Source: Candidatus Rokuibacteriota bacterium
Lineage (GTDB): Bacteria > Methylomirabilota > Methylomirabilia > Rokubacteriales > CSP1-6
Length of the DNA: 35,028 nt
Reading direction: 5' to 3'
Assembly (NCBI GenBank): GCA_016209425.1
Contig: JACQWA010000384.1
Location: 1 to 35,028, forward strand
Below the pieces are notes generated by a model. The model saw nothing but the letters and a program-made list of their open reading frames with translations. It was not told the DNA's origin and ran no database searches. The translations under genes and the position numbers were made by a program. Below, one piece after another: positions 14,066 to 31,431 of the stretch (position 1 is the first letter of the stretch; every line of letters begins with the position of its first letter).

Positions 14066-15070
14066 ATGAATCAGCGCAGGACGACAGGAATCTGGATCGG
14101 TCTGGTACTCGTCTTGTCCCTGGCCAGCTCGGCCTTCGGGGCCGAGGTGATCGTGGACACCGCCTATGTGGCCAAGCAGAAGGACAAGGCGGGGGTGGTC
14201 CTTCTCGATGCCCGCGGGGGAAAGGCATACGGCGAGGGGCACATTCCCGGCGCCATCAACCTCGGCGGCAGGGGGGCGGCCGTGGTCCTGAGGGACGTGG
14301 ACGCGCGGGTGCTTCCGGTGAAGACCCTGGAGAAGATCCTCGGTGAAGCGGGGATCAGCCGGGACCAGGAGATCATCGTGTACGGAGCCAAGGGCGACAC
14401 CGGCATGACGGTCCCATTCTGGATCCTGGAGTACCTGGGGGCCGAGAAGGTTCGGGCCTACTGGGGAGGGATCGACGACTGGAAAGCCGCCAAGCAGCCC
14501 CTGGCGACCCAGGAGCAGAAACTCCCGGCGGCCAAGTTCGTGGCCAAGGTGCGGGCGGACCGCTACGCCTCGACGGAGTACGTGAAGGCGAACTTGAAAA
14601 ACGCCAACGTCCAGATCGTCGATTCCCGGACCCCCAAAGAGTTCGCCGGAGATGATATCCGCGCCCTGAGGGGCGGGCACGTCCCCGGGGCCATTCTGAT
14701 CCCCTTCGAGCAGAACTGGGCCGACCCGGAGGCGGCGAAGAAGCTGGCCGACAAGAAAGTGACGGGCCGCGACGGCATGGCCCTGAAGGACGACAAGGCC
14801 CTCCGAGAGATCTACAAGGGCCTGGACCCCAAGAAGGAGGTCGTCGCCTACTGCCAGACCGGTACCCGCTCGACGCTGACCTACGTGGCCCTGAGGTCGC
14901 TGGGCTTCGAGAAGATCCGGAACTATGACGACTCCTGGATCGTGTGGGGGAGCCGCCCGGACCTTCCGGTCGAGAACGCGAGCTACTACGACTTCGTCAA
15001 GGTGAACGCGGCGCTCCGGAGGATCGACGACCTGGAGCGGCAGGTGGACGAGCTTACGCGAAAGCGGTGA
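14066..15070 (+). CDS. Exported two-domain rhodanese-like sulfurtransferase
   Basis: Signal peptide MNQRRTTGIWIGLVLVLSLASSAFGAEV; second domain active loop VVAYCQTGTRSTLTYVAL; first domain lacks catalytic Cys (IIVYGAKGDTG). Confidence 0.88.
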   Translation: MNQRRTTGIWIGLVLVLSLASSAFGAEVIVDTAYVAKQKDKAGVVLLDARGGKAYGEGHIPGAINLGGRGAAVVLRDVDARVLPVKTLEKILGEAGISRDQEIIVYGAKGDTGMTVPFWILEYLGAEKVRAYWGGIDDWKAAKQPLATQEQKLPAAKFVAKVRADRYASTEYVKANLKNANVQIVDSRTPKEFAGDDIRALRGGHVPGAILIPFEQNWADPEAAKKLADKKVTGRDGMALKDDKALREIYKGLDPKKEVVAYCQTGTRSTLTYVALRSLGFEKIRNYDDSWIVWGSRPDLPVENASYYDFVKVNAALRRIDDLERQVDELTRKR

Positions 15071-15077
15071 CGCCGGG

Positions 15078-15449
15078 ATGGCGGGAAAGCGCCTGCTCAT
15101 CTTGCAGACGCACGGGGTCGGTGAGCCGCGCCGGACGTACGCGCCCCTCTTCTTCGCGCTGACGGCCGCCGCCATGGACATGGAGGTGGCCGTCTGGTTC
15201 AGCATGGAGGGCGTCACCCAGCTCCGCAGGGGAGCGGCGGAACAGGTGGAGCTGGAGCCCGGGAGCGGGGTGACGCTCAAGACCTGGCTCGACCAGGCCC
15301 GGGAGGCGGGCGTGGAGCTTCTGGCGTGCGCGCACGCCATGGGCCTGGAAAAGATGGTGGAAGCGGAGCTGATCGAAGGGGTCCGGGTGGTGGGGGTCGC
15401 CGGCGTGCTCGATCGCTGCCTGGAGGCGGACCGCGTGATGTACTTCTGA
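15078..15449 (+). CDS. DsrE-family protein (DsrE2-like)
   Basis: RLLILQTHGVGEPRRTYAPLFFALTAAAMDMEVAVWFSMEGVTQL...GVELLACAHAMGL. Confidence 0.75.
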   Translation: MAGKRLLILQTHGVGEPRRTYAPLFFALTAAAMDMEVAVWFSMEGVTQLRRGAAEQVELEPGSGVTLKTWLDQAREAGVELLACAHAMGLEKMVEAELIEGVRVVGVAGVLDRCLEADRVMYF

Positions 15450-15466
15450 GAGCCACTGGAGGGGGA

Positions 15467-15742
15467 ATGGCACAGAAGAGGGTTGCCGTGCTCGTCAGGG
15501 ACAGACAGGGCGAGGCGCTCAGGATGTCTCTCGGCTTACTGCTCCTGGACGACGCGGTCGATGTGTACGTGCTGGACAGAAAGCTGGAGCCGACCGAGGA
15601 AAACCTGCTGCATCTGGAGACGATGAAAGAGTTCGAGATGACGATCTATACGAATTGCCGGGAGAACGAAGGAATGGAATGTCTTTCGACCGTGGAGCTC
15701 GCCCAGAAATTGCTTCAGTACGATCACGTGTTGCCCTACTGA
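15467..15742 (+). CDS. DsrE/DsrF-like small protein
   Basis: KRVAVLVRDRQGEALRMSLGLLLLDDAVDVYVLDRKLE...YDHVLPY; ATG at 15467 after a purine-rich RBS. Confidence 0.65.
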   Translation: MAQKRVAVLVRDRQGEALRMSLGLLLLDDAVDVYVLDRKLEPTEENLLHLETMKEFEMTIYTNCRENEGMECLSTVELAQKLLQYDHVLPY

Positions 15743-15780
15743 GCCTCCGTCCCGGTCGATGAGGGAGAAGGGACAACGGC

Positions 15781-16083
15781 GTGAAGCTGGGAATACTCGT
15801 CAACACGGATAGACATCTTCACGATATTGTCGGGCTGACACGAGCTGCCGTTTCGAGCGGGCATGAAGTGACCCTCTTCGCCATGGACGAAGGCACGCGC
15901 TTGGTCGAAGACCCTTCCTATACCGATCTGTGCAAGCTGCCTGGCGTTGCCATGAGCGTCTGTGAGCACAGCGCCAAGGGGCATCACGTTCGGACGGTGG
16001 GGCTGCCCAAAGAGATCGTCTGCGGGAGCCAGTATCATCACGCGGTGATGGTCCATGGCGCTGACCGGATGATCGTCCTGTAG
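15781..16083 (+). CDS. DsrE/F-like family protein
   Basis: KLGILVNTDRHLHDIVGLTRAAVSSGHEVTLFAMDEGTRLVED; GTG start. Confidence 0.65.
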   Translation: MKLGILVNTDRHLHDIVGLTRAAVSSGHEVTLFAMDEGTRLVEDPSYTDLCKLPGVAMSVCEHSAKGHHVRTVGLPKEIVCGSQYHHAVMVHGADRMIVL

Positions 16084-16099
16084 CGGGAGCGATTGGGTG

Positions 16100-16270
16100 A
16101 TGAGGGTTCTCTTTCTCCTGAGGGACGGACCGGAGAAGCTCTGCGGTCAGATCATCGATCTGCATTCCAGGGAGCATGAGGTGACGGTCATCGATCTCTC
16201 AGAACGAGAAGTTCCCTACGAGCGGATCGTTGCCGAGATCTGCGCTCACGACAGAGTCATCGCGTGGTGA
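16100..16270 (+). CDS. 56-aa DsrH/TusB-like protein (not in supplied ORF track)
   Basis: Translated by hand: MRVLFLLRDGPEKLCGQIIDLHSREHEVTVIDLSEREVPYERIVAEICAHDRVIAW*; starts 17 nt after the previous stop and overlaps the next start. Confidence 0.6.
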   Translation: MRVLFLLRDGPEKLCGQIIDLHSREHEVTVIDLSEREVPYERIVAEICAHDRVIAW

Positions 16271-18018
16271 AACAGTTGCTCCCACCCGAAACGAGGGGCG
16301 GTCGTGCGTCCGAGGGCGAAAATACGGATCCGGCCATCGTATGGCTGATTTCGCTGCTGTTCGTGGCGGCATTTCTCACGCTGTTCGTCATCCGCGGGAT
16401 CGATGACAACCGGCTGACGAGCTGGCAATGGGTATTTGCCGCCGCCGATGGGCCCAAAATCGCGGGGATGCTGGGGATCGGCCTGGTGTGTGCGTTCGCG
16501 GTGTCGAAGGTGTCGCTGCCGGGGCGCCACCTGGGCGGCGTCCTGTTCCTCTCCTCTTTTCTCACGGCGGCGGGGTTCTGGAGCGAGCCCGAGGTGATCG
16601 TGGATGCCGCGAGATATTTCACGCAGGCCAAGCATCTCGAACTGTACGGGGTCGCGTATTTCCTCCACGGCTGGGGCAGGGAGATTCCGGCGTGGACGGA
16701 TCTGCCGCTCATCCCCTTTCTCTACGGCGTGATGTTCGCCCTCTGGGGAGAGACGCGGGTTGGGGTCCAAGTCTTTACCACGCTCCTCTTTTCCGGGACG
16801 GTTGTGCTCACCTACCTGATCGGGAAGACCTTGTGGGACGAAGGCGTCGGTTTCCGCGCGGGGGCGCTTCTTCTGGGGATGCCCTACCTGCTCACGCAAG
16901 TGCCGCTGATGCTGGTTGACGTCCCCACGATGTTTTTCGTTACGCTCGCGACGTTCACCGCCATCAAAGCCCTCAGAGAAGGAGGAGCGGGGTGGACGAC
17001 CGTGTCGTCCGCGGCGCTCACGTGCGCCTTGTTATCGAAATATTCGACGTGGCCGTTGCTCACCGTGGTTCCGATCATCTTGCTGGTCCACGTGTGGAAG
17101 GACCCGGGGAGACTCCTGCTGCGGGCCGCCGGGATCGTCCTGGTTCCCGTGGTCCTCGTAGGGGCTGTGGGGCTCTGGAAGTATGACGTGATCGTCGGGC
17201 AGCTCGGGCTGCTCCAGACGTATCAAGCGCCGGGCTTAACGCGGTGGCGGGAGAGCTTCGCCTCGACATTCCTCTTTCAGATCCACCCCTTCATCAGCGT
17301 CGCAGCGCTGTATTCCGTCCTGGTTGCGTTCTGGAAAAAGGACTGGAAGTACGCGATCGTCGGCTGGCTCTTGGTCCTGGTCGTGCTGCTGCGGATCGAG
17401 CGGATCAGGTACCTCCTCGTGGCGTTTCCGATGCTGGCCCTGATGGCATCCTACGGCCTGCGGGAAATCAGGAGCGCCGAGATCAGAAGATTCACGACGT
17501 GCGGGATCATCGCCTCGTCACTCGTGGTCGCCGTCTTCGGGTATTTGCCGTACTTGACGAACATCAGCGCGGTAAACGTGATGAACGCGGGCGAGTATTT
17601 GAACTCGATTGACGCGGAGACCGTGGAGGTCTTCGCCCTCCCCCAGGCGCACTCGGCGGTGAATCCGGCCGTGTCCGTTCCGCTGCTCGATCTATTCACC
17701 CGCAAGCGAATCGTCTACCATGACCAGCCACGCTGGTCGCCGCCGCGGGAGGAAATCGAGAGGTCGCCCTTGCGGTTCACGTGGGAGTATCGGAACCCGA
17801 CCTACTACAGTTCACGGGCCGCGGGTCCAAACGGGACGGGGGCCGTGGTGGTCATCCTCGCCCACACCGATCAATCCTTGCCGGATCCGGTCGAGCGGAA
17901 AATCAGAGAGTACCGCCTGTCGAAGGCCTTTCAGGCGTCAGACGAGTGGTTTCAGTACAGGACCTTCGTGAGGATCTACCAGCCGGTGCCGAAGGCGCCG
18001 ACCGGGAGGGCGGATTGA
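16264..18018 (+). CDS. ArnT-like / PMT-family multi-TM glycosyltransferase
   Basis: GTG start; many TM segments; VRGIDDNRLTSWQWVFAA..., ARYFTQAKHLELYGVAYFLHGWGREIPAWTDLPLIPFLYGVMFALWGETRVGVQ; aspartate-bearing first loop. Confidence 0.7.
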   Translation: MVKQLLPPETRGGRASEGENTDPAIVWLISLLFVAAFLTLFVIRGIDDNRLTSWQWVFAAADGPKIAGMLGIGLVCAFAVSKVSLPGRHLGGVLFLSSFLTAAGFWSEPEVIVDAARYFTQAKHLELYGVAYFLHGWGREIPAWTDLPLIPFLYGVMFALWGETRVGVQVFTTLLFSGTVVLTYLIGKTLWDEGVGFRAGALLLGMPYLLTQVPLMLVDVPTMFFVTLATFTAIKALREGGAGWTTVSSAALTCALLSKYSTWPLLTVVPIILLVHVWKDPGRLLLRAAGIVLVPVVLVGAVGLWKYDVIVGQLGLLQTYQAPGLTRWRESFASTFLFQIHPFISVAALYSVLVAFWKKDWKYAIVGWLLVLVVLLRIERIRYLLVAFPMLALMASYGLREIRSAEIRRFTTCGIIASSLVVAVFGYLPYLTNISAVNVMNAGEYLNSIDAETVEVFALPQAHSAVNPAVSVPLLDLFTRKRIVYHDQPRWSPPREEIERSPLRFTWEYRNPTYYSSRAAGPNGTGAVVVILAHTDQSLPDPVERKIREYRLSKAFQASDEWFQYRTFVRIYQPVPKAPTGRAD

Positions 18019-18019
18019 A

Positions 18020-19462
18020 ATGGAGGCCGTGGAAAAGAGAAATCAGGTCTGGGTGTTTATCATTGTCGGCTTCCTCACCCTGGTCAGCGTCGCGACGTAT
18101 CTGTGGAACGAGTACTACATTTATCTCTCGGCGTATTTGTGGTTTGGCTTTATTTACGGGATGTGCCTTCAGTACGGGAGGTTTTGCTTCTCGTCGGCCT
18201 TCAGAGATCTGTTCGCCGTCGGGGTGCCGAGGATGGCCGTCGGGATCATGATCGCAATGGTCTTGTTCGGTTTTGTCTCTGCCTTCGTCACGGCGACCGG
18301 GATGAGCACGTTCCATGCCGCTCCCTACGGGGTTCACTCGGTGATTGCCGGCCTCATCTTCGGCGTGGGGATGGTGTTCGCCGGGGGCTGCGCGTCGGGT
18401 TCCCTGTATAAGAGCGGAGAGGGCAACGGGTCCGCCATGCTGGTGGTCGTCTCTATCAGCGTGACTCAGGCGATCATCGTGGATATCGGGGGGTGGTTCA
18501 ACAGGCTGGTGCCGCGCTCCTGGTACGACTCGGCCATGGCCAAGGACCTTCCGGCGAAGATCAACGTCGCGGACGGCTGGATGGACCAGTATCTGGCCGG
18601 GTATGTGTGGGACCAGCCCGTGACGACGTTCGGGGAGCTGGTGAGGATCTCCAACCCCTTCCTGGCCGCGTACGTGGGGAACCTGCTCCTCGGCATCGCG
18701 GTGCCGGCGGCATTCATCCTGACCTGGATCTACATCACGTGGGCGAGAAGGCCGTTCTTGAAGAAACGGATGAAGGCGGGGCAGGCCAGGAGGGGCATCG
18801 CGACGGAGCTGGCCGGCTACTGGAGCATGATCGTGGCTTCGAACAGGACGGCCGTGGCGGGACTCTTCCTGGGGATCGCCGCCGGCCTTCATATGCTCGT
18901 GATGAAGGGGCTCCAGGTCAAGTTCGGGGTGCAGAACTTCGGCGAGCTGATGACCCGGATGGGCTTCACATTCGGCATCTCGGCCAAGGGAACGGTGTTC
19001 GATCCCGGCTACTGGTACGTGACGACTCAGGAGGCCCAGTGGGTGGGCTGGGTCTTCAACAGGCTGGGCTGGGACAACATGGATAACGTCTTCTTCGGGC
19101 TCAACAACGGCATCCCCAACCCCCTCATCAACCCGGCGGACTGGATGTCCCTCGCCCTGATCGGCGGCGCCGCCGTGATGGCGCTCCTCCACAACGAATT
19201 CAAGTGGAAGGCTCCCACGAGGGAGCTCGCCATGTGGGCCATTCTCGGCGGGGCGTTGATGGGAATCGGCTCCCGGCTCGGTCTCGGCTGCAATATCGGG
19301 GCCTTCTTCGTCCGTGTGTCCGAGGGCGATGTGTCGGGCTGGCTGTTCGGCATCGGGATGATCGCCGGCGCCTACCCGGGGGTGAAATTCCTCAGCTGGT
19401 GGACCGAGCGGAAGATGGCCAAGGAGGCGGCATTCGAGATGGAGCCGCAAACACAGCGGTAA
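18020..19462 (+). CDS. YeeE/YedE family sulfur-compound transporter (TsuA-like)
   Basis: GMCLQYGRFCFSSAFRDLFAVG, GVGMVFAGGCASGSLYKSGEGNGSAML, GSRLGLGCNIGAFFVRVSEGDVSGWLFG conserved Cys motifs. Confidence 0.92.
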   Translation: MEAVEKRNQVWVFIIVGFLTLVSVATYLWNEYYIYLSAYLWFGFIYGMCLQYGRFCFSSAFRDLFAVGVPRMAVGIMIAMVLFGFVSAFVTATGMSTFHAAPYGVHSVIAGLIFGVGMVFAGGCASGSLYKSGEGNGSAMLVVVSISVTQAIIVDIGGWFNRLVPRSWYDSAMAKDLPAKINVADGWMDQYLAGYVWDQPVTTFGELVRISNPFLAAYVGNLLLGIAVPAAFILTWIYITWARRPFLKKRMKAGQARRGIATELAGYWSMIVASNRTAVAGLFLGIAAGLHMLVMKGLQVKFGVQNFGELMTRMGFTFGISAKGTVFDPGYWYVTTQEAQWVGWVFNRLGWDNMDNVFFGLNNGIPNPLINPADWMSLALIGGAAVMALLHNEFKWKAPTRELAMWAILGGALMGIGSRLGLGCNIGAFFVRVSEGDVSGWLFGIGMIAGAYPGVKFLSWWTERKMAKEAAFEMEPQTQR

Positions 19463-19475
19463 GGAAGGATCTGCC

Positions 19476-19736
19476 ATGGCGATGAAGTTCGAAAAAAAGG
19501 CGGAGGGCGATTTTTTCCTGGACGTCACCGGATATGTCTGCCCGCATCCTCAGCTCTACACGAAGAAGGCCCTTGAGAAAATGCGGGAAGGCGACGTCCT
19601 GGAGGTGGTGTTCGACAATCCCTCTTCCGCGGAATCGATCGCCGCGATGTGCGATACGATGGGCGACGATATCATCGAGCGGATCATGGAGAAGGGCACG
19701 TATAGGTGGAAAATTAAAAAGACAGAATCGGGTTAA
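19476..19736 (+). CDS. tusA: TusA-family sulfurtransferase
   Basis: FLDVTGYVCPHPQLYTKKALEKMREGDVLEVVFDNPSSAESI; CPxP motif. Confidence 0.9.
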   Translation: MAMKFEKKAEGDFFLDVTGYVCPHPQLYTKKALEKMREGDVLEVVFDNPSSAESIAAMCDTMGDDIIERIMEKGTYRWKIKKTESG

Positions 19737-19747
19737 GAAAGCCTCGC

Positions 19748-19978
19748 ATGAACACGCGCCTGTGGTTCGTCCTTCTTGTCGTTGTGGCATGGATAAGCTT
19801 CTTGATCGGTTACAGCGTATCGGCTCTGACCGGCGTGAAGCCTCCTCCTGCCGAAGTGACGGCGGCCGGTGGAGGGTACGGCGCCAGCCGGGGAGGATCG
19901 AAGGCAGCGGCCGGCGGCTACGGCGGGTCCGCCGGAAGTTCTGAAGCGACCTCGAGCCGGGACGACGAAACAGAATGA
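19748..19978 (+). CDS. Small membrane-anchored Gly/Ser-rich protein, unknown function
   Basis: LWFVLLVVVAWISFLIGYSVSAL TM segment then AAGGGYGASRGGSKAAAGGYGGSAGSSEATSS; fits gene spacing. Confidence 0.6.
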   Translation: MNTRLWFVLLVVVAWISFLIGYSVSALTGVKPPPAEVTAAGGGYGASRGGSKAAAGGYGGSAGSSEATSSRDDETE

Positions 19979-20039: not shown

Positions 20040-21542
20040 ATGAAGTGTGCGTTGATCATCCCCGCGTGGGTCCCGGGGGAGATCTTCTCGCCGAAGACCA
20101 CCAGCTCGCAGATCAATTACTGGCAGCCCCTCGGGACCCTCTACGTCGCGTCGTGCCTCCTCCAGGCCGGACACGCGGTGAAGTTTTTGAACGGGGCCTT
20201 TATGACCCATGAGGAGATATTGGCGGCGGTCAAGGAATGGCGCCCGGGCTTCGTGGGTATCTATTCAACCGCCTTTGGCTGGCCGAAAGCCAGGGAGACG
20301 GCCGACGATATCAAGCGGCTTGATCGGGAAATATTCACCTGTGTCGGAGGGCCCTATCCCATCGCGGTCCGGGGGGGGTGCTTGAGCCGGGGAGGCGGAA
20401 GCCTGGATGCGGTGGTGACCGGTGAGGGCGAATGGTCGGTGGTCGAACTGGTCGACAGGCTCCAGCGCGGGAAAAACCTCGCGGGGGTGCAAGGAGTCAT
20501 TTTCAAGGACGGTGGGGACATTATTGAGAATCCCCCGAGGCCGTTCATCGCCGATCTCGATTCTGTTCCGTTTCCCGCCAGAGAACTCCTGGGCGATGCG
20601 AATCGGTATGTCCCTCCCCCGGGGACGTACAGGAGACGGCCGGTGGCCGTCATGATCACCGCCAGGGGATGCGATCGGAGGTGCATCTTCTGCTTCCAGA
20701 TGGACAGGGAGAGAACGAGCGGCGTCCGGGGGATCCGCTACCGCACCGTCGGGAATGTCTTGAGGGAGATCGAGCTCTGTCTCGCGCAGGGTTACCGGGA
20801 GATAAAATTCATTGATGATACGTTCGCTGCCGATTACGACCGGGCGATGCACATCGCCCGGGAGATCAAAGCGCGCCGGCTCGACTTCGCCTGGTTTGCC
20901 TCGGCCTGCGTGAATCAGGTGGATACACCCTTGCTGCGCGCCTTCAGGGAGGCGGGGTGCTGGGCGATCCTCTTGGGCGCCGAAAGCGGCGTCCAGAAGA
21001 ACCTGAACGCGATCCGGAAAGGGATCACGCTCGAGCAGACCCGCCGGGCGGTGAGGGCGGCGAAGGAGGTCGGCCTCACGGTCAGCACGCCCTTCATCTG
21101 CGGCCTACCCGGGGAGACCTTTGAGGAGGGGCTGCGGACCATCGAGTTCGCCTTGGAGCTCGACCCCGATATGGCAAACTTCCACGCCCTCACGCCATTT
21201 CCGGGAACCGACCTGTACGATCAGCACGAACGCTACGGCAGAATCTCTGAAGACCTGACGGACTACACCTATCAGGGCGCGGCATTTGTCCCCTACACCA
21301 TGACAAGAAGGGAGATCTTCACGCTCCGGCGGATGGCGTTGAGACGCTTCTATTCCAGGCCTTCATTCTGGCTGAGAAGGCTCCTTGGGCTCAGGACGTT
21401 CCACGATCTGGCCGCAGCGGCGAAGGGGATGAAAAGCCTCTTCTGGCTCTGGGCGAGACGGGATGTGTTCGAGCCCCGGAAGGAGAGACTACAAACGCAG
21501 GTATTCCTGGACCAGGCTGGCGTACCACCTCGGATTAAATAG
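20040..21542 (+). CDS. B12-binding domain radical SAM protein
   Basis: N-terminal cobalamin-binding-like domain; ITARGCDRRCIFCFQMDRERTSGVRGIRYRTVGNVLREIE (CxxxCxxC), KFIDDTF, LLGAESG, FICGLPGET. Confidence 0.9.
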   Translation: MKCALIIPAWVPGEIFSPKTTSSQINYWQPLGTLYVASCLLQAGHAVKFLNGAFMTHEEILAAVKEWRPGFVGIYSTAFGWPKARETADDIKRLDREIFTCVGGPYPIAVRGGCLSRGGGSLDAVVTGEGEWSVVELVDRLQRGKNLAGVQGVIFKDGGDIIENPPRPFIADLDSVPFPARELLGDANRYVPPPGTYRRRPVAVMITARGCDRRCIFCFQMDRERTSGVRGIRYRTVGNVLREIELCLAQGYREIKFIDDTFAADYDRAMHIAREIKARRLDFAWFASACVNQVDTPLLRAFREAGCWAILLGAESGVQKNLNAIRKGITLEQTRRAVRAAKEVGLTVSTPFICGLPGETFEEGLRTIEFALELDPDMANFHALTPFPGTDLYDQHERYGRISEDLTDYTYQGAAFVPYTMTRREIFTLRRMALRRFYSRPSFWLRRLLGLRTFHDLAAAAKGMKSLFWLWARRDVFEPRKERLQTQVFLDQAGVPPRIK

Positions 21543-22568
21543 GATGTTCGTGATGAAGTAGCATTCGTGGGTGCAGTAGCACTGGCCGCTCTGAATCGAC
21601 TCCCTGATCTTCCGGGCCTTTTCCGTTCGGATGATCCGCCCCAGGTCGTAGTCATACTCTCTGACGTTTCCAAAACTCGCGGTGAGCATCTCGCAGGGAT
21701 GCACCTCTCCGGTCTCCGTGAGGACGAGATTCAACCGGCCGGCATAACAGGGCATGAGCCGTTCCTGCGCGAGCAGGGTGTGGTGGATCAGGCGGCGCTG
21801 CACGACATCCTGGGCGGCCTTGAGGCGTCCGCCCCTGAAACGATAGCGCGGGGATCCCCTCCTTTTCAGACCGTCCTCGAGCCGCTGGATCGCGCGCGCG
21901 TAATTCTTGGCGTCCACGTTCTTATAACGCTCGTCCAGGAGGTTCCCGCGAACGAGGGAGATGGTGTGGGTGGTGACGTGCTTGAGGCTGCGGACAAAGT
22001 CGATGATCCCCTCCATCTCGTCCTGGTTCTCCGAACACAGGAGGGTATTGATGCCGAGTTCGAAGTGGGGGTACCGGCCGAGGAGTTCGCCGAGGCCGTG
22101 ATAGGTCTCCATGGTTTTCTCAAAGCAGCCGGGTCGATTCCGGAGGGCGTCGTGGGCCCCATTCAGCCCGTCCAGTGAGAGTTTGACGACGATGACGCTC
22201 TTCTTGCAGTGCGTGAGGATTCGCTCGACGCCGTCTCGTATGATGTCGGGAAGCTGGCCGTTGGTGGGGTAGAGTATGACCACCGGCTTGTTGTGGTCGT
22301 AGAAGATCCGGCTGATCTCGACGAGATCGTTCCTGAGGAAGATCTCGCCCCCGGAAAAAGCAAGCCAGAGCAGAGTGCCCAGGGAGCGGGAGATCCGCTC
22401 GATTTCGTGCAGCGCCAGCTCGGGCGTGGGAGCCCCGGTCTCCCCGACGCTTCTGAGATAAAAGCAGAAGGGGCACCCGAGGTTGCACCTTCTGGTCACG
22501 AAGAAGGTGAGCTGGATGGGCGTCCGCTTCCAGAGGATCGAACCGATGTGGCGGAGCGGGGAATACAT
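21489..22568 (-). CDS. Radical SAM/SPASM-type protein
   Basis: FFVTRRCNLGCPFCFYLRSVG; LAFSGGEIFLRNDLVEI; C-terminal Cys-rich QCYCTHECYF; overlaps convergent gene at 21489-21542. Confidence 0.9.
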   Translation of the reverse strand: MYSPLRHIGSILWKRTPIQLTFFVTRRCNLGCPFCFYLRSVGETGAPTPELALHEIERISRSLGTLLWLAFSGGEIFLRNDLVEISRIFYDHNKPVVILYPTNGQLPDIIRDGVERILTHCKKSVIVVKLSLDGLNGAHDALRNRPGCFEKTMETYHGLGELLGRYPHFELGINTLLCSENQDEMEGIIDFVRSLKHVTTHTISLVRGNLLDERYKNVDAKNYARAIQRLEDGLKRRGSPRYRFRGGRLKAAQDVVQRRLIHHTLLAQERLMPCYAGRLNLVLTETGEVHPCEMLTASFGNVREYDYDLGRIIRTEKARKIRESIQSGQCYCTHECYFITNILFNPRWYASLVQEYLRL

Positions 22569-22570
22569 GA

Positions 22571-23575
22571 TTATGCCGGTCGTGCTCGCTTCGGCATCGC
22601 CAAATATCTCAGGGCGCCGAGGAGGGCGCCGGTGCCGACCGCCAGAGGATACACCATGACATAGTACAGGGTCGCGCCGGCGGCAAAGACGGCTCCCCCG
22701 GTGCGGTAGAGGGCCCGGATCAGCCCCCGGTTCAGGACCAGATTGAAAAGGATAACCCCTGGAATCAACGGCAGAAGGAATGGTCGTCCGATCGGGAACG
22801 CGAGCAGAAGGAGCAGCGCGCTCAGAACATATGCTCCGACGTTGAGCTTGAGCTGGAGCGACGCGGCTCCGGAGTCGGCAAGCAAATCCCCGTTTCCCAG
22901 GGAGTAGATGGTCCAGTACAGGGATTTTTTCACGGCGTTCCGAAGGGACCCCAGGAACGAGTAGTTAAAGACGTGTTGCACCTGGAGCTCGGGGTGCACC
23001 ACCAGGGTGTATCCTGCCCGCCGTAACCGGTGGCTGAACTCCACGTCTTCCAGGATCGGGAGGAACGCCTCGGCGAAGCCGTTGTTCTTCCGGAAGGTCC
23101 GGGCATCAATGACCATGGCGTGGGTGGCGACGTAATCCGGATGGTCCGCGTTCTTGGTCTCCGAGTAGTGGATGAATACCGACTGGAAGCGGCTGAAGAA
23201 CCTCTTGTCATACGGCGTCCGTGTGTAGGTGCCGCCCACCACTGTCGTGGGGCCTTCGCCGGCGAGGGTCTTGCTGGCGATGGAGAGGGTGTCCTCCTGG
23301 AGGAGACAATCGGCATCCGTAAAGAAAAGGGCCTCGCCTTTGCTGTGCGCTGCGCCGACATTTCTCGCCCTCGCGGCGCCGGAGTGCTTCTCGAGCCGGA
23401 GGAGCTCGCAGGGGAATGTTCTTATGACCGCCACCGAATTGTCCTCAGACCCGTCGTCCACCACGATCACCTCGAAGTCTGGATACCCGGAGGAAAAGAC
23501 GGCGGCGAGGCATTTGTCGATCGTGGCCACCCCATTTCGATTGGGAATGATGACGGAGATGAACGGTGCCATCAA
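22571..23575 (-). CDS. Family 2 glycosyltransferase
   Basis: FISVIIPNRNGVATIDKCLAAVFSSGYPDFEVIVVDDGSEDNSVAV, ALFFTDADCLLQEDTL, DVEFSHRLRRAGYTLV; C-terminal TM segments. Confidence 0.92.
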   Translation of the reverse strand: MMAPFISVIIPNRNGVATIDKCLAAVFSSGYPDFEVIVVDDGSEDNSVAVIRTFPCELLRLEKHSGAARARNVGAAHSKGEALFFTDADCLLQEDTLSIASKTLAGEGPTTVVGGTYTRTPYDKRFFSRFQSVFIHYSETKNADHPDYVATHAMVIDARTFRKNNGFAEAFLPILEDVEFSHRLRRAGYTLVVHPELQVQHVFNYSFLGSLRNAVKKSLYWTIYSLGNGDLLADSGAASLQLKLNVGAYVLSALLLLLAFPIGRPFLLPLIPGVILFNLVLNRGLIRALYRTGGAVFAAGATLYYVMVYPLAVGTGALLGALRYLAMPKRARPA

Positions 23576-24300: not shown

Positions 24301-25704
24301 GTGATAGACATCCCCCGCCTCGTCGTCTCCGCTCCTCACGGGCGCTCGGGGAAGACGACGCTCTGCCTGGGGCTCGCCGCGGCGTTCGCCGGGCGCGGCC
24401 TCCGCGTCCAGCCGTTCAAGAAGGGACCCGACTACATCGACCCGGGGTGGCTCGGCGAGGCCGCCGGGCGCCCGTGCCGGAACCTGGATCTCTTCCTGGT
24501 GGATGGCGGGGCGCTCCTGGCCGGCTTCGGCCGGGCCTGCCAGTCGGCCGATCTGGCCCTCATCGAAGGCGCCCACGGGCTCTACGACGGCCTGGACGGC
24601 GAGGGGACGAACAGCACCGCCCAGCTGGCCAGGCTGCTCCAGGCCCCCGTCGTCCTCGTCGTCGATGCGAGCCGGATGACCCAGAGCGTGGCGGCCCTGG
24701 TCCGGGGATTCCAGGATTTCCAGCCGGGCGTGAATGTCGCCGGGGTGATCCTGAATCAGGTCGCCAATCCCCGCCACCGCGCTAAGCTGGCCGACGCCCT
24801 CTCCCGCCACACGAGGCTTCCCCTGCTGGGCGCGCTTCCACGGGGAGCGTCCCTGACCATCCCCGACCGGCACCTGGGGCTGGTGCCGAGGGACGAGGAG
24901 GCGGGCCTCCTGCCGGTCGTGGACCAGCTCCGGCGGGCCGTGGAGGCGTCGGTGGATCTGGATGGACTGCTGGACCTGGCCCGTCGCGCCCCGCCGCTCC
25001 CCCTCGCGCCGGCACCCCCGATCACGACCCCCGCTCCCTCCGTGAGTCTCGGCGTGGCCCGGGATCGGGCCTTCACCTTTTACTACCCCGAGAACCTGAG
25101 GGCTCTCCGTCAGGCCGGCGCCGAGTTGGTTTCGCTGAATACCCTGGAGGACAGTTCGCTGCCGGAGGTGGACGGGCTCTACTTGGGCGGCGGATTTCCC
25201 GAGATGTTCCTGGAGGCCCTGGGAGCCAATGACGGGCTGCGGCGCGACATTCGCCGTGCCGTTGCCGACGGCCTCCCGATCTACGCCGAGTGCGGCGGTC
25301 TCATGTACCTGGCCCGGCGGATCACCTGGAACGGCCGGTCGGCCTCCATGGTGGGGGCGCTCCCATGCGACATCGAGATGACCGGGCGAATCCAGGGCCA
25401 CGGCTACGTCCGCGGGCGGGTCGCCGGGGCGAACCCTTTCTTCCCGATCGGGACCGCGCTCCGCGGTCACGAGTTTCATTACTCGCGGGCGACGAACGTG
25501 GGGGCCGCCGCCTTCGCCTACCACCTTGAGCGCGGCCGCGGGATCGACGGGGGGAAGGACGGGCTGGTGGTCGAAAACGTCCTGGCGGCATACACGCACC
25601 TGCACGCCCTCGGTGCGCCCTGGTGGGCGGAAGGCCTCGTCGCCATGGCGCGCGCGTATCGCGCCGGCCGCCCGGCGGGGTGGGAGCTAAGCCGGGTGCC
25701 ATGA
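24301..25704 (+). CDS. dsrN: Cobyrinic acid a,c-diamide synthase-like amidase, siroheme amidation (DsrN)
   Basis: PRLVVSAPHGRSGKTTLCLGLAAAFAGRGLRVQPFKKGPDYIDPGWL; GLYLGGGFPEMFLEAL; IYAECGGLMYL; HEFHYSRA; genomic context. Confidence 0.9.
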   Translation: MIDIPRLVVSAPHGRSGKTTLCLGLAAAFAGRGLRVQPFKKGPDYIDPGWLGEAAGRPCRNLDLFLVDGGALLAGFGRACQSADLALIEGAHGLYDGLDGEGTNSTAQLARLLQAPVVLVVDASRMTQSVAALVRGFQDFQPGVNVAGVILNQVANPRHRAKLADALSRHTRLPLLGALPRGASLTIPDRHLGLVPRDEEAGLLPVVDQLRRAVEASVDLDGLLDLARRAPPLPLAPAPPITTPAPSVSLGVARDRAFTFYYPENLRALRQAGAELVSLNTLEDSSLPEVDGLYLGGGFPEMFLEALGANDGLRRDIRRAVADGLPIYAECGGLMYLARRITWNGRSASMVGALPCDIEMTGRIQGHGYVRGRVAGANPFFPIGTALRGHEFHYSRATNVGAAAFAYHLERGRGIDGGKDGLVVENVLAAYTHLHALGAPWWAEGLVAMARAYRAGRPAGWELSRVP

Positions 25705-26054
25705 AGATCGGGGTGATGGTCCAGGAGGGGCCGTATCAGCACCAGGCCTCGGACAGCGCCTGGGAGTTCATCCAGGCGGCGCTTGCCCGGGGGCATGAGA
25801 TCGCTGGGGTCTTTTTCTACACGGACGGCGTGTACAACGCGAACCGGTTCATGAATCCGCCCGGGGAGCGGGTGATCGGCAAGCGCTGGTCGGAGCTGGG
25901 GGCCCGGGGGATTCCGCTGGTGGCCTGCGTGACCGATTCGACCTACCGCGGCATCACCCCCGAGATCGCCGTTCCCAACGTGAAGATTTCCGGGCTGGGA
26001 AACCTGGCCGAGTTCATCCTGGCGGCGGACCGGTTCGTGACATTCGGCGACTGA
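25701..26054 (+). CDS. dsrE: Sulfur-trafficking protein DsrE
   Basis: MKIGVMVQEGPYQHQASDSAWEFIQAALARGHEIAGVFFYTDGVYNANRFMNPPG...LVACVTDSTYRG; overlaps dsrN stop. Confidence 0.9.
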   Translation: MKIGVMVQEGPYQHQASDSAWEFIQAALARGHEIAGVFFYTDGVYNANRFMNPPGERVIGKRWSELGARGIPLVACVTDSTYRGITPEIAVPNVKISGLGNLAEFILAADRFVTFGD

Positions 26055-26060
26055 GGGGAG

Positions 26061-27242
26061 GTGATACGAGCGGCAGGGTCTGAGGCTGTACGCAGGTTCG
26101 CATCCAGGGGAGGGCTCACAGTGCGTCTCCGAGTGAAGAAGGTCACGGCAATCATTCCCGTCTTGTTTATCGGGGTCGTCCTCATCTCGCTGATAGGTGC
26201 CGGCGCCCTTCCGGGCGCCGAAAAAGTGTACCAAGGGACCGTCTACGTCGCCGGCATGGGCGGGCACATCGCGAAGGCCGAGGTGAGGATCGACCCGTCA
26301 CAGGCCGAGCCGATCTCCGTGGTGAAGCTTACCAGGATCAAGCTCCACAGCGATGCGGCTGTCGCCAAGAAGGCGTACCCAACGCATGACGTGAGAATCG
26401 ACCACGCGAAGAACGTGATGTTCTGGTCGGCCTTCGTGCTCGACGGCAAGTCGATGCACGCGGGGAAGATCGATCTGGCGACGGGCAAGGTGGTCGCCGA
26501 CGCAAAGTTCCTGAAAGGCCAGCGGACGACGGCTCAGGGGCCGATGTACTGCGGCTCGGGGCAGACGAAGGACAAGTTCCTGCCCGTCATGATGGGGTAC
26601 GAAGGGTTCGTTGACGTCGTGGACAAGGAGACGATGAAGCTGGAACGCCGGGTGTTTTTCGACCACCCGAAGATTCCCAAGAACTACGTCTGGGCGCACG
26701 GGGTCAACTCGCCCGACGGCAAGGAGTTCGCGCTCTGGATGAGTCTTGCCGACGCCCCGGGGAAGTTCCCGAGGGAGAAGGAGGGGCGGCACCTGGTGTT
26801 CGTTCTCGACACCCCATCCCTTGTCAACGGGGAGATCAAGGTACTCCGGGAGACAACCCTGACGGGGGACCCCACGGCCAGCGCGCTCTTCAGGGGCTTC
26901 TACACCTCGGATGGCACGCGCGTGCTGATCTCCGGCAGGGACCGCACCTGGCTGCTGGATGCGGCGAGCCTGAAGGTCCTCGCGGAGACCGCGAACTCTC
27001 CCGGCTGGGAGAACCACGACATCCAGCCCCTTCCCGGCGACAGGTACGCGCTGCTCACACACCGGGTGCCGATGGAGTTCGAGCCCGGCAAGAAGGGGAT
27101 GGACGGCCAGCTCGAGCTCTACGACCTCACCCGGATGGCCAGGGTCGGCAAGGCCGTCTCCGTCTGCCAGTCCTGTCACAGGGACGAGGACATCAAGACG
27201 ACCTCCGTCGCGTGCGGCCTGGACAGCGTATGGAAGCAGTAG
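26061..27242 (+). CDS. Exported/membrane-anchored propeller-like protein with single C-terminal CxxCH heme-c motif
   Basis: N-terminal hydrophobic VTAIIPVLFIGVVLISLIGAGALPGAE; repeating strand-rich segments; CQSCH at 27165-27179; start could be downstream (about 26121). Confidence 0.75.
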   Translation: MIRAAGSEAVRRFASRGGLTVRLRVKKVTAIIPVLFIGVVLISLIGAGALPGAEKVYQGTVYVAGMGGHIAKAEVRIDPSQAEPISVVKLTRIKLHSDAAVAKKAYPTHDVRIDHAKNVMFWSAFVLDGKSMHAGKIDLATGKVVADAKFLKGQRTTAQGPMYCGSGQTKDKFLPVMMGYEGFVDVVDKETMKLERRVFFDHPKIPKNYVWAHGVNSPDGKEFALWMSLADAPGKFPREKEGRHLVFVLDTPSLVNGEIKVLRETTLTGDPTASALFRGFYTSDGTRVLISGRDRTWLLDAASLKVLAETANSPGWENHDIQPLPGDRYALLTHRVPMEFEPGKKGMDGQLELYDLTRMARVGKAVSVCQSCHRDEDIKTTSVACGLDSVWKQ

Positions 27243-27661
27243 AGCCGTCGGAGCACGGCCCGCAGGTGGGGGGGGCCGGGGAGGTCGCCCCCCCCAGGAA
27301 GGTCCTGGTCCTCATGCGCAAGGCCCCCTACGGATCCCTCTACAACTGGGAAGGGCTTCAGACGCTCCTGATCATGGGGGCCTACAAGATGCAGGGGAAA
27401 GTGGATGTTGCCGTGGCCTTCGTGGACGACGGAGTCTACGCCATCACTCAGGGCCAGGACCCGCGCCTGCTGGGGGTGAAGGCGCTCGCCAAGACCTACC
27501 CGGCCCTTCCCGACTTCGAGATCGAGCGCTTCTACGTCGATGAGCAATCGCTGGCCGACCGCAATCTGACGCTCAACGACCTCGTGATCAAGCCCGAGCT
27601 GCTGGATGGAGCAGGGATGGCCCGCCTCCTCGAGCAACAGGACGCGGTCCTGCCGTTCTGA
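27230..27661 (+). CDS. dsrF: Sulfur-trafficking protein DsrF
   Basis: KVLVLMRKAPYGSLYNWEGLQTLLIMGAYKMQGKVDVAVAFVDDGVYAITQGQD...; position before dsrH. Confidence 0.87.
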   Translation: MEAVEPSEHGPQVGGAGEVAPPRKVLVLMRKAPYGSLYNWEGLQTLLIMGAYKMQGKVDVAVAFVDDGVYAITQGQDPRLLGVKALAKTYPALPDFEIERFYVDEQSLADRNLTLNDLVIKPELLDGAGMARLLEQQDAVLPF

Positions 27662-27673
27662 CGAGGCAGACTC

Positions 27674-27967
27674 ATGCTCTTCACCGTGAACAAGTCGCCC
27701 TTCATGTCCGGCAACCTGGAGAGCTGTCTGCGCGTGGCCCCGGCCGGGACACCTCTCGTGCTGTACGAGGACGGGGTGTACGCGGCCGCGGCGGGCACCC
27801 GAGTGCAGGGGCTGGTGCGCGAGGCCCTGGCCCAGCACCCGGTCTACGTCCTCGAGGCCGACGTGAAAGCGCGGGGAATCGAGCGGCTGATCGAAGGAGT
27901 GCGGGTGATCGACTACGGGGGCTTCGTGGAGCTGGTGGAGCAGCACCCGGTCGTCCCGTGGCTCTAG
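27674..27967 (+). CDS. dsrH: Sulfur-trafficking protein DsrH
   Basis: MLFTVNKSPFMSGNLESCLRVAPAGTPLVLYEDGVYAAAAG...GGFVELVEQHPVVPWL. Confidence 0.87.
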   Translation: MLFTVNKSPFMSGNLESCLRVAPAGTPLVLYEDGVYAAAAGTRVQGLVREALAQHPVYVLEADVKARGIERLIEGVRVIDYGGFVELVEQHPVVPWL

Positions 27968-30879: not shown

Positions 30880-31431
30880 ATGACCGGGGCGGGCGTGGGG
30901 TCGGCGCCGTTGACGGGGGCGCTGGCGGCCGGGAAGGACGCCATCGTCCGCGCGTGGCTGGCGCGGACGCTCGAGGCTTACCCCGAGCGCACCGCCCGCT
31001 TCCTGGCGCAGGAGGGGGATCCGTTCCGAAATCCCGTCGGCCAAACCCTGAAGGAGGCGTTGCCTGCGCTCTTCGACGAGCTCCTCGGCGCCATGGACGC
31101 CGGCAGGCTCTCGACGCTTCTGGACGGGATCGTCAGGATCCGGGCCGTGCAGGATTTCACCCCCAGCCAGGCGACCGCCTTCGTCTTCCTGCTCAAAAAG
31201 GTCATACGCGAACAGATGGACCTCCCCCCTCACCTGTCTCCTCTCCCCCTCAGGGGGGCAGGGGAGGGTGAGGGGGCAATGGCCCTGGCGGCCGTGGAGG
31301 GCCGGATCGACGAGATGGCCCTGCTCGCCTTCGACCTGTTCGTGCGGTGCCGGGAACAGATGTACTGGATCAAGGCCGACGAGGCCAGGCGCCGGACGTC
31401 CCTGCTGGAGCGGATGCGGGAGCGGCCGTGA
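30880..31431 (+). CDS. RsbRD N-terminal domain-like protein (dsr-associated)
   Basis: AARTLEAYPERTARFLAQE-like region (LARTLEAYPERTARFLAQEGDPFRNPVGQTLKEALPALFDELLG), IVRIRAVQDFTPSQATAFVFLLKKVIRE; sits between dsrC and dsrM. Confidence 0.8.
   Translation: MTGAGVGSAPLTGALAAGKDAIVRAWLARTLEAYPERTARFLAQEGDPFRNPVGQTLKEALPALFDELLGAMDAGRLSTLLDGIVRIRAVQDFTPSQATAFVFLLKKVIREQMDLPPHLSPLPLRGAGEGEGAMALAAVEGRIDEMALLAFDLFVRCREQMYWIKADEARRRTSLLERMRERP
31226..31277. repeat. Palindromic CCCTCACC...GGTGAGGG repeat inside an ORF
   Basis: cccctcacctgtctcctctccccctcaggggggcaggggagggtgaggggg; related to 10128-10203. Confidence 0.75.

Follow-up and report, generated by a model that had tools for sequence, protein, structure and literature searches.

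The nearest known counterparts of the present locus are copper-dependent propeller enzymes of sulfur metabolism and the DsrEFH sulfur carriers. Thiocyanate dehydrogenase (TcDH) is a copper-dependent propeller encoded with Cop or Cus genes alongside (PMC6504805). It is a Tat-exported, seven-bladed protein with a trinuclear copper site, and its electron acceptor is a separate single-heme cytochrome c (PMC9456337, PMC6504805). Methanethiol oxidase (SBP56/MtoX), whose gene mtoX is adjoined by mauG, is a periplasmic, copper-dependent propeller enzyme which acts on a sulfur compound and is encoded with SCO1 (PMC5739008). DsrEFH are small cytoplasmic sulfur carriers, for which a type II arrangement beside yedE and tusA has been published (PMC13293266), and the Dsr system of Rokubacteria has been described as chimeric (PMC10504309); the label rDsr, which the original prediction had attached to the cluster analyzed here, is therefore not established.

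The window (the whole stretch of DNA that was analyzed, 35,028 nucleotides from a Rokubacteria genome referred to below as G000) contains an additional gene, termed X, between dsrE and dsrF of a type I set, with dsrH and dsrA coming after dsrF (Table 1). The open reading frame that had been predicted at this position (26061-27242, forward strand) is real, and the calls for dsrE, dsrF and dsrH rest on curated NCBIfam cut-offs. Its predicted end also holds, as does the overlap with the start of dsrF, whose ATG at 27230 lies inside the end of X and gives an overlap of 13 nt (27230-27242). The proposed start at 26061, from which a product of 393 aa (about 390 in the original prediction) would be read, is less likely than the GTG at 26121 (373 codons), because the ribosome-site-like sequence AGGGGAGGG lies directly upstream of the latter and the 20 preceding codons are poorly conserved: in a relative that is 86% identical, 10 of these 20 codons are identical and the substitutions show no preference for third positions, against 88% identity over the body of X. 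Read from 26121 and compared with the same gene in a second Rokubacteria genome (G071), the frame is under purifying selection (dN 0.073, dS 0.380). The gap between the end of dsrE and the GTG is 66 nt, and the stretch contains no promoter- or terminator-like site between X and its neighbours, which makes co-transcription with dsrE and dsrF likely.

Table 1. Features of gene X, its product and the associated sulfur-transfer genes in the window
Feature	Position	Strand	Basis or remark
dsrE (type I)	25701-26054	+	TIGR03012, 96.9 bits against cut-off 89.25
Gene X; product predicted to be an exported propeller, heme c motif near its C-terminus	26121-27242	+	ORF, translation, fold, homologs
Signal/anchor segment MRLRVKKVTAIIPVLFIGVVLISLIGAGALPGA	26121-26219	+	by eye; no twin arginine; model residues 1-32 of low confidence
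His49 in GMGGH	26265-26267	+	invariant; candidate metal ligand
His89	26385-26387	+	46/47; candidate metal ligand
Cys144	26550-26552	+	46/47; covaries with Cys365
His193	26697-26699	+	invariant; candidate metal ligand
His299	27015-27017	+	invariant; candidate metal ligand
CQSCH heme c motif (residues 349-353)	27165-27179	+	CxxCH invariant in 47/47
Cys365	27213-27215	+	46/47; covaries with Cys144
dsrF (type I)	27230-27661	+	TIGR03010, 94.4 bits against cut-off 94.15
dsrH (type I)	27674-27967	+	TIGR03011, above cut-off
Second set, three DsrE-family-like genes (15078-15449, 15467-15742, 15781-16083)	15078-16083	+	arrangement matches type II DsrEFH
YedE-like sulfur transporter and TusA	18020-19736	+	linked to X in betaproteobacterial loci and some Nitrospirota

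The translated product begins with positive charges, followed by a hydrophobic segment that would direct export, a strand-rich body and, near the end, the single CQSCH, at which heme c would be attached; the CxxCH by which c-type cytochromes are recognized, and whose lack of conservation would have counted against the original prediction, is present in every one of the 47 aligned sequences. Further residues invariant in this alignment are Asp90, Arg92, Asp94, Met158, Lys169, Arg177, Arg258, Arg275, Asp300 and Arg315. The conserved histidines capable of binding a metal number only four, one of which is replaced by Gln in one member (L005, see below). Cys144 and Cys365 are both present in 46 of the 47 sequences and both missing from L005, a pattern that fits a probable disulfide between them. 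The prediction of an exported, propeller-like mono-heme protein is supported, as to its fold by AlphaFold2, which, from alignments of five sequences, modeled as propellers both the window protein (pTM 0.78, mean pLDDT 75.5) and the L005 domain (37% identical, pTM 0.79). As we interpret the DSSP string, the modeled strand order is most simply explained by six blades of four strands each, with the last strand, beyond the heme motif, completing the first blade. One ring residue per blade was also considered and rejected as a proven repeat: the register is backed only for residues 193/258, whose score in profile-profile comparison is reached by 0.06% of random pairs, and, shifted by one residue, for 193/299, the remaining pairs having been matched by eye. 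Foldseek matched the models to hundreds of propellers, TcDH ranking first for the window protein and 33 for L005 (TM ~0.5, 10% identity); because of these ranks, and with generic propellers placed first by the second model, we regard the fold match as unspecific and use TcDH as an analogy only.

X represents a previously unnamed family, in agreement with the earlier statement that it is not a named dsr gene. Searches of Pfam and NCBIfam with 47 members returned no family that matches convincingly, a profile of X found no chain below E = 0.035 among all PDB sequences, none of the copper-protein families match X by sequence, and a plasmid collection contained no homolog. A Cytochrom_D1-type propeller (PF02239, the type of NirN, NirF and NirS) was rejected as an assignment, with matches in 4 of 47 members (best E 0.007) and none for the window protein. 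The first relatives, found by contig search, were four: one from Rokubacteria CSP1-6, two from Betaproteobacteria bins and one from a Nitrospirae bin. Whole-genome searches, made on single representatives of which many are MAGs in which a missing gene may reflect a gap, then placed X in 3 of 95 Methylomirabilota and, as strong and near full-length matches, in 47 Nitrospirota species out of 346 sampled, the X-bearing ones mostly carrying dsr genes; the counts given for this phylum, here and below, are uncorrected for phylogeny. In one betaproteobacterial family 4 of 98 genomes carry X (one copy being a fragment), as does 1 of 369 in the evenly sampled class, so that X is rare in that group. The tree joins Rokubacteria and the two Betaproteobacteria in one clade (100/100) and places the latter beside a third Rokubacteria genome, G090 (98/92), a grouping that suggests either gene transfer from one group to the other or mis-binned contigs.

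Two variants of the domain were also observed. In a Nitrospirae bin (L005:8870-10999), it is fused behind a caspase-like (Peptidase_C14) domain and has lost His89 along with the cysteine pair; the same genome also encodes a second, ordinary X. Additional weak matches in Nitrospirota are a distant paralog, exemplified by L076:5370-6521, in which GHGGH, HD, SxCxxCH and LCG motifs occur and which is followed by FtsX and ABC genes; the CxxCH propellers of this phylum form a superfamily broader than X.

The tight packing with dsrE and dsrF that the original prediction had emphasized is supported, and the order dsrE-X-dsrF is more than a chance arrangement: it recurs in two other Rokubacteria genera, namely in G071/L002, whose X is 86% identical, and in G090 (74% identical), where two further genes come between X and dsrF. 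True DsrE was found in five Methylomirabilota genomes (G000, G071, G090, G089 and G088), three of which have X, and the contents of their dsrE-dsrF junctions differ: X alone in G000 and G071; in G090, X followed first by a Cox11/CtaG-cytochrome c fusion and next by SCO1; ExtKL, a multiheme selenoprotein-type cytochrome preceded by a small exported protein, in G089; and nothing in G088. These varied contents indicate that one exported cytochrome can be exchanged for another at the junction and that DsrEFH can do without X. Like X, ExtKL is an exported c-type cytochrome which occupies the same slot and which is also found close to X at six loci in Nitrospirota; unlike X, it is multiheme, is not a propeller and has no sequence similarity to it. 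The G089 gene (L101:12932-14576; NF040886, 395.7 bits against a cut-off of 250) is split by an in-frame TGA (14196-14198), as is the ExtKL gene of Nitrospirota L076 (14140-14142), and these codons probably specify selenocysteine. The same G089 contig contains two successive dsrA/dsrB sets (15361-19900), one 67-75% and the other 88-92% identical to those of the window, and the window itself has, between dsrC and dsrM, a conserved 183-aa gene (30880-31431) that is 53-67% identical in three other Rokubacteria.

Outside G000, G071 and G090, X was found near no dsr core gene (46 loci), and none of the 47 X-bearing Nitrospirota has type I DsrE. The latter is not evidence of avoidance, a possibility we rejected since 0 of 47 does not differ significantly from the 11 of 299 genomes lacking X (p = 0.37). 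In the same phylum dsrA scored above cut-off in 43 of 47 genomes with X vs 109 of 299 without (Fisher p = 4e-13, a value confounded by ancestry). Organisms with dsr genes are thus the usual carriers of X, but X is not a general partner of type I DsrEFH. The proposal of a partner dedicated to the Dsr system is not supported, two dsrEFH-bearing Rokubacteria also being without X, and conserved co-presence with dsrEFH, by which X would count among the Dsr core, was not found. Homologs spread broadly with no link to dsr genes had been named in advance as evidence against that proposal, and the outcome is divided: some homologs are physically linked to sulfur-transfer genes, but most lie away from dsr genes. 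Nor, in our reading, is X a subunit of the DsrEFH complex, whose small cytoplasmic carriers it does not resemble and from which it is set apart by its export segment and heme motif, even though the two share loci (with the type I set in Rokubacteria and, in other phyla, with a DsrF-like gene of type II). We interpret its position between dsrE and dsrF as an operon insertion particular to some Rokubacteria, giving co-expression.

The link to sulfur transfer is wider than the type I set. A second set of three genes in the window matches the published type II arrangement, so that both DsrEFH types are present, and is adjoined by an exported rhodanese, GT39, yedE and tusA. Relatives of its middle, type II DsrF-like gene occur beside X, within the fetched stretch, in 12 of 46 loci; in 12 Nitrospirota genomes the distance to X is at most 4.5 kb and in 10 of these it is within ~1.1 kb. 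In the two Betaproteobacteria X is divergent from a cluster of type II DsrF and DsrH, two yedE, tusA and rhodanese. A statistical association was rejected, type II DsrF being present in 41 of 47 X-bearing and 25 of 33 other dsrA-bearing genomes (p = 0.24); because it is about equally common without X, the linkage is physical and not obligatory, and in most Nitrospirota X loci there is no recognized sulfur gene nearby. The window also contains a B12-binding radical SAM gene, a SPASM radical SAM gene and a GT2 (family 2 glycosyltransferase) gene (20043-23575); two radical SAM genes, GT2 and an FAD oxidase recur near X in Rokubacteria, Nitrospirota and Betaproteobacteria.

The strongest clue to function, which the original prediction missed, comes from the copper-handling neighbours of X homologs. 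In a survey of 46 X loci, with neighbours named by Pfam, PCuAC (PF04314) lies near X in 17, mostly immediately upstream on the same strand, FtrD-like genes in 12, NosL (PF05573) in 8, SCO in 5 and Cox11-cytochrome c in 4. Among 50 X-bearing genomes, 18 of 23 PCuAC genes are within ~2.2 kb of X (nominal binomial p = 6e-38, or ~1e-37, a value inflated by the shared ancestry of the genomes). Other copper-enzyme genes were not recognized as recurrent neighbours. A Cox11-cytochrome c and SCO pair comes after X in the Betaproteobacteria (L016/L017), the same pair that is found inside the dsr operon of G090. The occurrence of two distinct copper sets around one protein in distant lineages, PCuAC and NosL in Nitrospirota and Cox11 and SCO in Betaproteobacteria and G090, is the best argument that X itself, which these loci have in common, needs copper. 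The window genome has no copper gene beside X and no PCuAC; its two SCO genes lie away from X.

Taken together, these observations make it probable that X is a periplasmic metal enzyme of a new kind, active in sulfur metabolism, which does not belong to the standard Dsr machinery. Our preferred reading, to which we assign a probability of about 40%, is that X is an exported propeller oxidoreductase with copper and heme c which acts on an external sulfur compound and feeds the sulfur carriers. Copper delivered by PCuAC, NosL, SCO or Cox11-type chaperones would be bound in the propeller's central funnel by His49, His193 and His299, with His89 as a further ligand, next to the covalent heme c on the C-terminal CxxCH. 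The enzyme would most likely oxidize a reduced sulfur compound outside the cytoplasm, its heme handing electrons to other periplasmic cytochromes, and sulfane sulfur would pass through a YedE-type transporter to TusA and then to the DsrEFH carriers, type I in Rokubacteria and type II in Nitrospirota and Betaproteobacteria. Since copper propeller enzymes of sulfur metabolism with adjoining copper genes are known, X plausibly works like methanethiol oxidase or TcDH. It shares with TcDH (PMC9456337, PMC6504805) the predicted export and propeller, the tie to sulfur metabolism, copper genes alongside and a single heme c as the putative electron acceptor, and its loci share SCO1 with methanethiol oxidase. 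X differs from TcDH in having its own heme c motif in place of a separate cytochrome and in the absence of a twin arginine from MRLRVKKVTAIIPVL; from methanethiol oxidase it differs, again, in the heme c motif, and in the lack of any SBP56 match.

Of the alternatives, the one that survives best is that X is a propeller with one heme and no copper, serving only as an electron relay, or as a redox sensor, that connects carriers in the periplasm with the membrane complexes of Dsr; the copper genes would then serve other proteins. We consider this a possible if doubtful explanation. The heme c motif is the sole cofactor site in X that is recognizable by motif, X stands alone with dsr genes in the window and in G071, and another c-type cytochrome, ExtKL, fills the corresponding slot in G089; against this, the invariant His/Arg set exceeds the needs of a heme carrier, a simple electron carrier would rarely need a whole propeller, and the clustering of PCuAC with X has no other recurrent copper enzyme to account for it. 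Rather unlikely is that X serves as the periplasmic partner of an FtsX/ABC pair, like NosD with NosFY, and so helps to assemble, or to supply metal to, some other metalloprotein. In most Nitrospirota loci an FtsX permease and an ABC ATPase are at +1 and +2 of X, the distant L076 paralog also precedes such a set, and NosL and FtrD-like genes are nearby. The NosL-like gene and the ABC transporter recall the maturation genes of nitrous oxide reductase (NosL, NosDFY), from which these loci differ in the FtsX type of the permease and in that X is not NosZ. Against this reading, Rokubacteria and Betaproteobacteria keep X without the pair, and the constant component is X and not the transporter. A role with selenium or tellurium oxyanions instead of sulfur is improbable: ExtKL, known from a Geobacter selenite/tellurite gene cluster, is near X in the six Nitrospirota loci and fills the dsrE-dsrF slot in G089, and YedE relatives occur in selenium metabolism too, but ExtKL is absent from most X loci and the YedE/TusA set matches the published sulfur-transfer cluster (PMC13293266). 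Membership of X in a known copper propeller family (TcDH, methanethiol oxidase or lactonase-type NosZ), toward which TcDH as the top PDB structure for the first model and weak matches of 3 of 47 members to the lactonase-type NosZ model (NF052460) might point, is refuted at the level of sequence and extremely unlikely, since the latter matches are local, involve different parts of the profile and reach 13-19 bits against a cut-off of 700, SBP56 is not among the matches listed for the 47 members, and the X profile retrieved no TcDH, methanethiol oxidase or NosZ from all PDB sequences at E up to 10.

In a broader proposal, which we regard as speculative and rather unlikely, X would supply the first, extracytoplasmic step that the DsrEFH sulfur-transfer route has so far lacked: propeller enzymes of a new class, with copper and heme c, would make sulfane sulfur from an external sulfur compound, to be imported by YedE and passed by TusA to DsrEFH, in use with reductive-type or chimeric Dsr systems. 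We found no paper that unites the neighbours of X, and a family that has no Pfam, NCBIfam or PDB entry is nonetheless present in 47 of the 346 sampled Nitrospirota species. In Rokubacteria, the junction between dsrE and dsrF, which takes X, X with copper chaperones, ExtKL or none, constitutes a natural experiment in operon assembly.
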